DNA of 64,000 nucleotides, from positions 496,001 to 560,000 of the forward strand of contig NZ_JAFIDC010000001.1 in the NCBI RefSeq assembly GCF_017052655.1. The letters run 5' to 3'. The position numbers and the translations under genes are program-made. The notes below the pieces were generated by a model. The model had not been told where the DNA came from and did no database searches. It saw only the letters and a program-made list of their open reading frames with translations. Shown here piece after piece: positions 28,530 through 36,130 of this stretch. The DNA is from Acholeplasma equirhinis. Lineage in GTDB: Bacteria; Bacillota_I; Bacilli_A; Acholeplasmatales; Acholeplasmataceae. Each line of letters begins with the position of its first letter. Position 1 is the stretch's first letter.

Positions 28530-29621
28530 ATGAAAGGTTTATACATCCATATCCCATTTTGTGAGTACATATGTCATTATTGTGACTTTGTTAAACGTGT
28601 TCCAAAGGATCAAAATATGATTGATACATATTTGATTCGCTTACGAGATGAAATACAAACATATCAAAAACATTTTGATTCAATAGAAACAATTTATATT
28701 GGTGGTGGTACACCATCAATGTTAACTGTCGACCAATTAACCTATCTTTTTGACTCATTAAAAGCTATCCATCCAATGGAGTTTTCAATTGAGGTTAATC
28801 CTGAAAGCTATACTTTTGAAAAAGGTGAGGTCTTTAAAAAGTATGGTGTTAATAGAGTCTCACTTGGTGTTCAGTCATTTGATGATAAGATTCTAGCTTA
28901 TATGAATCGTGGACATAAGACTGAACAAATTGAATCAATTATTAAACATTTAAAATCAATTGGTATAAAAGATATCTCAGTTGATCTAATTTTTGCAATC
29001 CCTGGTCAAACTATGGATCATATTAAACATGATTTGGAACAATTCATTAAATTGGACATTGATCATATTTCATATTATTCATTAATCTTAGAAGACAAAA
29101 CTTATTTTTATCATCAATATTTAAAAGGTAATTTTAAACCAATGGATGAAGATATCGAAGCTGAAATGTATCATTATATTATTGATTTTCTTGAGTCAAA
29201 AGGTTATGAACAATATGAAGTTTCAAACTTCGCTAGAGACAATCATTATTCACTTCATAATTCAATCTATTGGACATTAGGTGAATATATCGGTGTTGGT
29301 ATGGGTGCACATGGATTTATTGATAATGAACGTACTTATAACGAGCGTGGAATGAGTCAATATTTAGACCATTTTACAAAAGAACGTATGCCACAAACCG
29401 ATGAGCTTAAACTTCAGGATGAATTAATATTTGGACTTAGAATGACCAAAGGTGTTGATATTCATAAGATTGAAAAAACTTATGGTATTAATCTTTTTGA
29501 AAAATATCCTCAAATACAAGATAAGATTGAACTCGGTTTGTTAAGACTTAAAGATCATCATTTGCAATTAACTAAAGAAGGAATGATGCTTGGTAATCAA
29601 GTATTCATGTTATTCATATGA
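28530..29621 (+). CDS. hemW: HemW-like radical SAM protein
   Basis: 363 residues from ATG 28530 (AAGAGG at 28515-28520; the in-frame TTG at 28521 has no suitable site). The radical SAM cluster motif is C11-x3-C15-x2-C18 (PFCEYICHYCDF), followed by GGGTPS and the SAM-binding EVNPES segment, and the HemW-type C-terminal domain. These proteins are often annotated as coproporphyrinogen oxidase, but HemW is a haem-binding chaperone; the short CxxxCxxC motif without the extra HemN cysteine supports HemW. It overlaps xerD by 4 bases. Confidence 0.88.
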   Translation: MKGLYIHIPFCEYICHYCDFVKRVPKDQNMIDTYLIRLRDEIQTYQKHFDSIETIYIGGGTPSMLTVDQLTYLFDSLKAIHPMEFSIEVNPESYTFEKGEVFKKYGVNRVSLGVQSFDDKILAYMNRGHKTEQIESIIKHLKSIGIKDISVDLIFAIPGQTMDHIKHDLEQFIKLDIDHISYYSLILEDKTYFYHQYLKGNFKPMDEDIEAEMYHYIIDFLESKGYEQYEVSNFARDNHYSLHNSIYWTLGEYIGVGMGAHGFIDNERTYNERGMSQYLDHFTKERMPQTDELKLQDELIFGLRMTKGVDIHKIEKTYGINLFEKYPQIQDKIELGLLRLKDHHLQLTKEGMMLGNQVFMLFI

Positions 29622-30523
29622 AGTATTTAGTAAATGATTTTATTTATTACTTAAATCATGAAAAAGGGTTATCTAAAAATACCCAGCAGGCTTATCTTAC
29701 TGATATTGAGGGATATCAACAGTTTTTAGAAAAGTATCACAAGATTACTAAAGTGGATAGGATTGAAAGAAAGCATTTAGAAGCCTATCTAAAAAGCCTT
29801 AAAAATAGAGGTATGAGTGCGAAATCAATGGCACGCAAACTGACGTCAATTAAAGCATTTCATGCGTTTTTATTAGAAGAAAAAGAAGTTGATACAAATA
29901 TTGCTTTATTAATTGAAAGACCTAAAATTGAAAAGAGTTTACCTTCAGTATTATCGATTGATGAAGTAGTTAAACTCTTAGAAACAATTGATCGTTCAAC
30001 ACCACTTGGACTTAGAAATGTAGCTTTACTTGAACTGATTTATGGGTCAGGACTTAGAGTATCTGAACTCCTTAATATTCATACATCGGATGTACATATG
30101 ACACAGGCTTATGTTGTCGTAACAGGTAAAGGTTCTAAAGACCGAATGGTGCCTATTTCTGATATGGCTGTGGTTGCGATTAGAAACTATTTAACACAAG
30201 GTAGAGATGAACTTTTGAAAAGACCTTCTAGTTACTTATTTGTTAACTTGAATGGTGAACCTTTATCAAGAGTTGGATTCTTCAAAGTATTAAAAAAATT
30301 AGCATTCGATGCAGGTCTTAATCCAGAACATATTTCACCACATACACTCAGACATTCATTCGCAACACACCTATTAGAAAATGGAATGGATTTAAGAAGT
30401 TTACAAAATTTACTAGGACATGAAGATATTTCAACTACTCAAATTTATACACACATTTCACAAAAGAGATTAAAGGAAGTTTATGAAAATACACATCCTC
30501 GAGCGAGAAAGGAAAAGCTATGA
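29618..30523 (+). CDS. xerD: tyrosine recombinase XerD
   Basis: Site-specific recombinase of 301 residues that resolves chromosome dimers at dif. The N-terminal SAM-like domain spans about 1-90. The catalytic residues are complete: R147 (GSGLRVSEL), K171 (TGKGSKDR), H242 and R245 ([11 protein letters not shown]), H268 (LLGHED) and Y277 (TQIYTH). It starts in an ATGA overlap with hemW and overlaps deoB likewise. The xerD-deoB order matches the ripX-drm order of B. subtilis, supporting XerD rather than XerC. Confidence 0.9.
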
Positions 30524-31713
30524 AATACAAAAGAATATTCTTAATCGTTATGGATTCAGTTGGTATTGGTTATCAACATGATGCAGATAAATTCTTTAAT
30601 GCTGGCCATAATGATATTGGTTCAAATACACTTGGAAACATTGCAGAAAGAATGGATTTAAAGGTTCCAAATCTTGAGAAATTAGGTCTTGGAAACATTG
30701 CACCTTTAAGAGGTATTAATCCTCAAAAAGAACTTAAATCTTTTGTTACAAAGATTGCAGAAGCAAGTAATGGAAAAGATACAATGACAGGTCATTGGGA
30801 GATGATGGGACTCTATATTACAACACCATTCCAAACCTTTACAGACACTGGTTTCCCTAAAGAATTAATTGATCTTTTAGAACAAAGAACTGGACGTAAA
30901 GTTGTAGGTAATATCAGTGCATCTGGTACTGAAATTATTAAAGACTTTGGTGAGCATCATATGAAAACTGGTGACTTAATTGTCTACACTTCAGCTGACT
31001 CAGTTTTACAAATTGCTATGCATGAAGAAATCATTCCAATTGCTGAACAATATCGAATTTGTGAGATAGCTCGTGACATCACTATGAAACCCGAATGGAA
31101 GGTTGGACGTGTTATTGCAAGACCATTCTTAGGAACAAATAAAGACAACTTTAAACGCACTTCAAATAGACACGATTATGCACTTAAACCATCAAATAAA
31201 ACAGCTCTCAATTTCTTAGATGAAAAGGGTTTTGATGTGATAGCACTTGGTAAAATTAATGACATCTTTGATGGCTATGGAATTAACCAATATGCTAAGA
31301 CAGTTTCTAACGATGATGGTATGGTAAAAATCACTGAGTGGAGTAAGAAAGATTTCACTGGATTGGTGTTCTTAAACCTCGTAGATTTTGATGCGTTATA
31401 TGGACATAGAAGAGATGTTGAAGGTTATGGAAAAGCGATTGAAACATTCGATTCTCAACTACCTGAATTAATGAAAAATCTACGAGAAGATGACTTACTT
31501 TTAATTACAGCAGACCATGGTAATGACCCTACATTCTATGGTACAGATCACACCAGAGAACATGTGCCATTAATCATTTATAGTCCAAGTTTCAAATCAG
31601 GTAAACTCTTAGAAACAAGACATACATTTGCAGATATTGGATTCTCTATTGCAGAAAATTTTGATACAGAATTACCTGAACATGGTAAATCATTCTTAGA
31701 CTTAATTAAATAA
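30520..31713 (+). CDS. deoB: phosphopentomutase
   Basis: Interconverts ribose/deoxyribose 1- and 5-phosphate in nucleoside salvage, linking DeoA/DeoD to DeoC, all encoded in this window. 397 residues, alkaline-phosphatase superfamily: VMDSVGIGY near the N-terminus, the phosphorylatable DTMTGHWE segment, and the C-terminal metal-binding [11 protein letters not shown] and DHTREHVP. The start overlaps xerD (ATGA). It is the last gene of the hemW-xerD-deoB operon. Confidence 0.95.
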
Positions 31714-31734: not shown

Positions 31735-31760
31735 AAAAGGAGCTCGCTAGCTCCTTTTTT
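31735..31760. terminator. bidirectional terminator between deoB and the asparaginase remnant
   Basis: AAAAGGAGCT (31735-31744) / AGCTCCTTTT (31749-31758), 4-base loop, followed by T and preceded by A. Confidence 0.85.
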
Positions 31761-32742
31761 AATTTTCAAAATATTGATTTAATTCATCATTAGTTGATAT
31801 AGATTCAAGTGCAAGCATTAGAAGTATTCTTGATTTTTGACTTGGTAAATTACCGCTAAATAATACACCTAATTGTTTAAGATGATAGCCGCCACCTTGA
31901 TATGCATAAGTGTCAAATACACGACCCTTAGGACAACGTGAAGTAACAACAACAGGGATACCTTCCTGTATCGCACGTGCAATACCAGGTACCATCATTG
32001 GTGGTACATTACCACGTCCAAGTGCTTCAATAATAATCCCATCAACTTTAGAATCAATTAAGAAATTAATGATAGATGAGTCTGTACCTGATGCAGCTTT
32101 GACAATTTCGACTCTTTTTGTAAGTTTACTAATTGTAATTTTAGGTTTAGTATTTGTATTCGAACGATAAAAGAAAACTCGTGAAGAATCGACAACTCCA
32201 AGTGGTCCAAATTCAAGAGACTTGAAAGTATCGAGTGCAACAGTATGCGTTTTGGTAACTTCGCTAGCAGCATTGATCTCATCATTCATGACTAGTAGCA
32301 CACCACGGTTTTTTGACTGTGAGTCAGAAGCGACTAAAATTGCTGAGACGATATTTGAGAGTCCATCATACCCTAGCTCAGATAGGTTACGCATTGCACC
32401 AGTCATAACGATTGGAGTCTCCATTTTGTAATAGAGATCAAGGAAGTATGCAGTCTCTTCAATGGTGTCAGTACCGTGTGTTATAACGATCCCATCATAA
32501 TTTGTATGTTTAATTTCACTGTCAACTAGTTTAGCAATGTTAAACATATCATTTGGCGTTATTTAAGGACTTGGGAAATAGGAGTGTTCAATATATTTAA
32601 TTTCGATGTCTCTAAAGACGTCCTTCACAGCTGATTGGAGTTGAGTGTTACCAGATGACATGACTGATTTCATAGTGTTCATATCATTGATCATTGCGAT
32701 GGTACCACCTGTAAAAATTACGAGTATTTTCTTATTATTCAT
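31759..32742 (-). pseudogene. L-asparaginase gene interrupted by an in-frame stop at codon 60
   Basis: A full 328-codon frame runs from ATG 32742 (AGGTGA ribosome site) to 31759, broken only by TAA at 32565-32563. The first 59 residues contain the nucleophile region VIFTGGTIAM; after the stop the same frame continues ITPNDMFNIAK and holds the second active-site motif ITHGTDTIEE and the rest of a type I asparaginase. No frameshift is needed, and the downstream part (possible restart ATG at 32547, no ribosome site) is otherwise undamaged. On its own it lacks the nucleophile and would be inactive. A recent nonsense mutation, a sequence error, or read-through are the options. Confidence 0.85.
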
Positions 32743-33529
<787 letters not shown>

Positions 33530-33553
33530 AAAAAATGCACCGTGTAGGTGCAC
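33530..33553 (-). terminator. terminator of the UPF0154 gene
   Basis: Minus strand TGCACC / GGTGCA with a 5-base loop followed by T7. Confidence 0.8.
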
Positions 33554-33574
33554 TTTAATATATTGTCTATTTTC

Positions 33575-33796
33575 TTACTTGTTATTTTTCATTGATGCAA
33601 GAATTTGGCGAACTTGTTTTTCAGATGGTGTTCTTCCCATTTGTCTAAACATTTCGCGAATTGATCTTTCATCGATTGGTGGGTTCTTTTCAAGGTAGCT
33701 CTTAAATACTTTTCTTGATATGAAGAATCCTGCAACACCACCAACTAGTAATGCTCCAACGATAATAACAACGAATAACCAAATTTCAATTTGCAT
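33575..33796 (-). CDS. UPF0154 family membrane protein (YneF-like)
   Basis: 73 residues: one N-terminal transmembrane helix (about 5-27, ending GGVAGFFISRKVF) and a cytoplasmic tail with the family pattern NPPIDERSIREMFRQMGRTP (33-52). The start is ATG 33796 with AAGGAG 8 bases upstream, rather than the in-frame TTG two codons earlier. The family is widespread in Firmicutes and Mollicutes; its function is unknown. Confidence 0.88.
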   Translation of the reverse strand: MQIEIWLFVVIIVGALLVGGVAGFFISRKVFKSYLEKNPPIDERSIREMFRQMGRTPSEKQVRQILASMKNNK

Positions 33797-33858
33797 GGTC
33801 AATACTCCTTTTGTATGTCACAATTAATTTTACTTGAATCTTATATAAATTACAATGA

Positions 33859-34407
33859 TTATATTTTAATCACATAATAGATCTTTTTAATGCCATATAC
33901 TTTTTCTGATCTTACTTGATATTTTGGTGTGCGTTCTAAGCTGAGTATGACATCTTTATGTGTTTCTATAACGATTAGGCCATCATCATCAAGTATACTA
34001 TCTAAATCATTAATAAGTGATTCTAAATTAACTTTTTTGTATGGTGGGTCTAAGAAGATAAGGTCGAATTTATATTGTTCGTTTTTGAGTTTTTCTACTG
34101 CTTTTAAATAATCTAATTTAAGCAATTCAGACTGTTCTTCAACCTTTAAACTCTTAATGTTTTCTAGTATAGTTTTGGTCGCATCTAGTTTAGTATCATT
34201 AAACATACATTTTCGTGCACCACGAGAAATTGATTCAAGTCCGTATGCACCACTACCTGCAAAAAGGTCAAGTATAAATGCATCTTTAACTTTATCTCCA
34301 ATGGAGTTTAAGACTGCTCCTCTAACTTTGTCAGAGGTTTCTCGTGTTGATTCAGAAGGTACCATTTTAATGATTCTGCTTCGATGGATACCACTTATAA
34401 TTCTCAT
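33859..34407 (-). CDS. rsmD: 16S rRNA (guanine966-N2)-methyltransferase
   Basis: Methylates G966 of 16S rRNA during 30S assembly. 182 residues, class I SAM fold: RIISGIHRSRII at the N-terminus, the SAM-binding DLFAGSGAYGLE (47-58) and the catalytic DPPY (120-123). The ATG shares bases with the deoA stop (TAATG), so it is coupled to deoA, an unusual pairing with a nucleoside salvage gene. The length is normal. Confidence 0.93.
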   Translation of the reverse strand: MRIISGIHRSRIIKMVPSESTRETSDKVRGAVLNSIGDKVKDAFILDLFAGSGAYGLESISRGARKCMFNDTKLDATKTILENIKSLKVEEQSELLKLDYLKAVEKLKNEQYKFDLIFLDPPYKKVNLESLINDLDSILDDDGLIVIETHKDVILSLERTPKYQVRSEKVYGIKKIYYVIKI

Positions 34408-36037: not shown

Positions 36038-36130
36038 AATTGTGTCACCTTCGCTTTCAAATATTATTTTACCAAATAATTGGGTTGTTTAAAAGGCTTT
36101 AGGATGTTATAATCAAGTTCGGTGATAAAT

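Follow-up and report, generated by a model that had tools for sequence, protein, structure and literature searches.

An in-frame stop codon in the only asparaginase gene found in Acholeplasma equirhinis suggests recent inactivation beside a predicted dif site

The window, that is, the whole 64,000-nucleotide stretch of Acholeplasma equirhinis DNA analyzed here, corresponds to bases 496001-560000 of contig C1 in a genome of 1.446 Mb that is assembled in 7 contigs and 99.75% complete. On its minus strand it carries a reading frame for an L-asparaginase (ansA) that comprises, on translation, 328 codons with one internal stop and a TAA at the end. The genus genomes G001, G004 and G006 carry uninterrupted, syntenic copies of ansA, flanked by counterparts of the metalloenzyme-family gene at 30520-31713, which we read as deoB, and of the genes at 33575-33802 and 33859-34407. 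A phage-integrase-family gene, labeled here as being of the Xer type, is located at 29618-30523. The features relevant to the analysis are the following:

31759-32742, minus strand: ansA (L-asparaginase) frame, 328 codons counting the internal stop, matched by translation, Pfam, relatives and structure
32563-32565, minus strand: in-frame TAA at codon 60, where all 48 aligned relatives have a sense codon
32563-32742, minus strand: first piece, a 59-residue ORF holding T14 and S58
31759-32547, minus strand: second piece, a 262-residue ORF starting at the next in-frame ATG and holding T91, D92 and K164
32746-32752, minus strand: ribosome-binding site AGGTGAT; GGTGAT occupies this position in G001, G004 and G006
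32759-32764, minus strand: -10-like box TATAAT, also present in G001, G004 and G006
31739-31754, minus strand: intrinsic-type terminator hairpin with a T run behind it; G001, G004 and G006 likewise have a hairpin in this position
32889-32903, minus strand: second conserved motif of 15 nt, located on the ansA side of the dif-like core at a distance of 38 nt (context)
32942-32963, minus strand: dif-like site for chromosome dimer resolution, which precedes the ansA start by 199 nt and is given as context, being outside the gene

The ansA frame covers both asparaginase Pfam domains (PF00710 and PF17763) from end to end. Read with an X at the stop, it matches the Asparaginase N-terminal domain over residues 5-194 (E-value 1.1e-56) and the C-terminal domain over residues 210-325 (E-value 1.8e-31), and solved asparaginases match it over residues 4-326 (top match 9d91_A, E-value 2.9e-72). 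T14, T91, D92 and K164 are all present in the frame, such that both halves carry catalytic residues, and T91 and K164 are likewise found in 48 of the 48 relatives in the alignment. Here we take T14 to be the nucleophile threonine, and S58, T91, D92 and K164 to be residues of the catalytic site. The frame is not a chance occurrence, because it is 71-72% identical, over its full length, to the unbroken frames found at this chromosomal position in the three genus genomes. An earlier, sequence-only reading of this DNA had reported a TAA at codon 60 (32565-32563) within an otherwise good asparaginase frame, which the translation and the Pfam matches bear out, and had described a ribosome site and both active-site halves, which are indeed found (AGGTGAT before the ATG, and the four residues named above). 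The locus hence resembles bacterial L-asparaginases of the ansA type in both domains, in length and in the retention of T91 and K164. In contrast with the single uninterrupted reading frame of these enzymes, however, it is broken at codon 60, and a complete enzyme is not expected from it. Beyond this stop the frame shows no lesion, be it frameshift or deletion.

The -10-like box, the ribosome site and the terminator of ansA are positioned as in relatives with intact genes. Further upstream, a conserved stretch was considered as a possible leader of ansA or as a non-coding RNA, and rejected in both roles, as it is also kept in genomes without ansA and contains the dif-like site. Consensus folds of this stretch were weak on both strands, no Rfam family reached its gathering score in the window (with only chance-level matches at E-values up to 10), and the RNase P RNA is located elsewhere, outside the stretch. 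Separately, a tracrRNA-like Rfam match at 33530-33603 (minus strand; E-value 0.68, far below the cut-off) ends in a hairpin and a T run just past the 33575-33802 gene, and is most likely the terminator of that gene.

In an alignment of the A. equirhinis sequence with 48 relatives, column 60 is variable and always sense, with serine in 28 sequences, tyrosine in 7, alanine in 5, histidine in 5 and phenylalanine in 3. All three other genus copies encode tyrosine at this codon. The frames of G030 and G017 present extra stops, which fall outside the aligned residues and were treated as natural ends. In an observation apart from ansA, the lepA match in G004 (L144:4667-6583) is about 32 codons longer than the lepA of the window, which is an insertion or an assembly oddity.

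A sequencing or assembly error, with a sense codon in the true sequence and a normal ansA, would account for the TAA, and a single wrong base would leave the remainder of the gene and its signals as untouched as they look. The assembly is, however, not error-rich in this region: a scan for broken frames, covering 184 kb and based on 68 ORFs of G001 that are matched in the A. equirhinis genome at 40% identity or more, flagged four cases, and ansA alone was judged a true break. The other three, judged by their coordinates, are not breaks: one is an ORF on the strand opposite the 33575-33802 gene, one reflects a start extended ahead of the gene at 36122, and one is a match to a paralogue. In the reverse direction, 2 of 63 were flagged in G001. 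The completeness of the genome and its small number of contigs also argue against an error, as does the absence of ansA from half of the genus, which makes its loss a plausible event. An error of this kind hence appears unlikely, and it ranks second among the readings considered here.

The amino-acid changes accumulated by the gene bear on the age of the lesion. Private changes affect 27 of 325 sites in the A. equirhinis ansA, a share of 0.31 among the four genomes, compared to 0.27 when pooled over 13 neighboring genes (range 0.12-0.39). Furthermore, among 63 positions conserved in at least 97% of the other sequences, this ansA has changed at one, with the other 48 sequences changing at 0 to 4. 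Nothing in these comparisons suggests long decay, and a substitution rate this ordinary would be expected just as much if the base were a sequencing error, or if the gene remained in use.

A match to ansA is present in 39 of the 61 genomes searched, A. equirhinis included. Within the genus the gene is found in 4 of 8 genomes (A. equirhinis, G001, G004 and G006) and was not found in G002, G003, G005 and G007, all of which retain the place that it occupies elsewhere; ansA is dispensable within the genus. A tree of the eight genomes built from six genes groups three of those without ansA with 92% support and places the fourth, G007, separately. Since G007 stands apart and the deeper nodes are weak (53-78%), one or more losses of ansA are possible. 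In G003 and G002 the ansA place spans about 1.1 kb and holds no long ORFs. A search for an asparaginase relic at the ansA place of the genus genomes without the gene returned only scattered short protein and DNA matches, and the candidate was rejected; judged without a formal null, these matches read as chance, and a fully decayed relic is possible. In two genus genomes without ansA, this interval of about 1.1 kb between deoB and the dif-like element (L158:1245-2380 and L159:1272-2377), with no long ORF, approaches in size that of ansA-bearing genomes.

A similar patchiness has been described in Buchnera, in which, among close relatives whose genomes are reduced, some keep ansA and others are without it (PMC3890641), although this organism is unrelated and the passages concerned describe no broken ansA. 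Searches for two asparaginase families revealed no further PF00710 gene and no PF01112 gene in the A. equirhinis genome, so that a real and effective stop would deprive the cell of its only recognized asparaginase.

The sequence-only reading had also put forward read-through of the stop, for which we obtained no positive support. Decoding of the TAA often enough to yield full-length asparaginase would be helped by the nature of position 60, where the occurrence of S, Y, A, H and F in relatives indicates that nearly any inserted residue might work, and the remaining frame shows no decay. Nonetheless, no anticodon reading a stop was detected among the 34 tRNAs found (an incomplete set, from which tRNA-Asn and tRNA-Ile(GAU) are also missing), two genes with a class-I release factor domain are present in the genome, and TAA is the usual end of genes (44 TAA, 13 TGA and 5 TAG among 62 genes matched in G001). 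In addition, shuffled sequences fold as well as the 150 nt that surround and follow the stop (z -0.21), and none of the 48 aligned relatives presents a stop at this position. Efficient read-through is thus highly improbable, and reassignment of TAA to a sense codon is ruled out by its role in terminating 44 of the 62 matched genes. Given the range of residues accepted at position 60, some active enzyme could still arise from weak leakage; that a leaky TAA at this tolerant position supplies a low level of the only known asparaginase, thereby keeping the gene under selection, seems marginally less probable again. As to the tRNA set itself, the lack of tRNA-Asn(GUU) and tRNA-Ile(GAU) across all contigs probably reflects assembly gaps, perhaps at rRNA operons.

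The 59-residue and 262-residue pieces might alternatively be made separately and then assemble into a split enzyme. The next in-frame ATG, five codons past the stop, is near enough for reinitiation, but no ribosome site is visible before it and no aligned relative among the 48 is split at codon 60, leaving this as the most remote of the readings.

Taken together, these data suggest that the TAA is probably a genuine nonsense mutation that has inactivated, recently in evolutionary terms, the only asparaginase gene found in the genome; this is the best reading of the locus, with sequencing error next and read-through unsupported. Very recent inactivation, as initially proposed from sequence, is the interpretation best supported by the single lesion, the ordinary amino-acid changes, the intact signals and the absence of the gene from half of the genus. 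Because the signals for transcription and initiation look intact, ansA probably continues to be transcribed, and to be translated over its first 59 codons. An ordinary TAA would then end translation, giving rise to a short, inactive peptide with the catalytic nucleophile and without the remaining active site. We infer that the base at codon 60 is correct as sequenced and that active asparaginase is not produced.

The premature stop, in a frame that relatives keep intact, marks ansA as a probable nonsense pseudogene, and the locus resembles recent pseudogenes of this type in presenting one stop, no frameshift or deletion, ordinary substitutions and a gene missing from some relatives. It differs in that the stop is known from one assembly of one strain. 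Open-access literature searches on asparaginase in combination with Acholeplasma, pseudogenes, dif or read-through revealed no report of this case among the matches listed. The gene is therefore an example of one apparently caught right after its first lesion, with half of the genus genomes already lacking it. The nonsense mutation in itself is probably ordinary, and its location is of interest for another reason.

The 830-nt gap that precedes ansA includes a part conserved throughout the 8 genus genomes, those without ansA among them. The invariant core of this part (32942-32963) occurs as one copy each in 24 of the 61 genomes at up to 1 mismatch, with a reversed-pattern control detected in 0. 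This core resembles the E. coli dif site, a 28-mer that was found in four papers, one of which concerns dif prediction. Within the window, the GC skew switches sign at the site, from +0.049 on its left to -0.093 on its right, and the cumulative skew peaks at 33630. The distance to dnaA is about 721 kb, which amounts to half the genome when the small contigs are not counted. Based on the single core, its likeness to E. coli dif, the skew switch and the distance to dnaA, the element is predicted to be dif, and the window to span the replication terminus. An occurrence of at most one copy per genome, near a GC-skew switch and opposite dnaA, is in line with a XerC/XerD dimer resolution site, and an earlier study (PMC3025954) gives as its criteria that the site occurs once and is close to the skew shift. 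The element departs from known dif sites in that most genomes here add a second motif at a fixed distance of 38 nt. Searches of the open-access literature for dif in Mollicutes or Acholeplasma returned no paper.

With up to 4 mismatches allowed, 43 of 46 loci show this second motif of 15 nt on the ansA side of the dif-like site, compared to 0 of 46 on the other side (46 loci were tested of 49 given, some of which represent the same region twice). The 4-mismatch limit is lenient, since shuffled sequences reach 2-5 mismatches at best, and the constant spacing, exactly 38 nt from the core in 37 of the 46 loci, is for this reason the stronger sign. The motif is also found in genus genomes without ansA and, at 37 nt, in one genome with an asparaginase gene of family f3. 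Its reverse strand in this window resembles a DnaA box.

The association between the dif-like site and ansA extends across the order. At up to 3 mismatches, the site lies 156-222 nt upstream of ansA, on the same strand, in all 28 testable loci of the order, A. equirhinis included (28 of the 30 ansA loci had enough upstream sequence). In a named collection of loci, which overlaps in part with the order-wide set, the linkage is present in 13 of the 14 closest loci (L001-L014), the contig of the fourteenth ending too close, and in none of the 66 other loci does a dif-like site fall near the asparaginase gene (3 mismatches, within the available locus sequence). Among seven asparaginase genes of the distantly related family f3, one is located 27 kb from the dif-like site and six are on other contigs. 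The surroundings hence matter more than the broken ansA itself: the gene sits beside a dif-like site, in an arrangement kept across the order and accompanied by a second motif at a fixed distance. The dif-like site, ansA and the motif constitute a concrete target for the biology of the replication terminus in wall-less bacteria.
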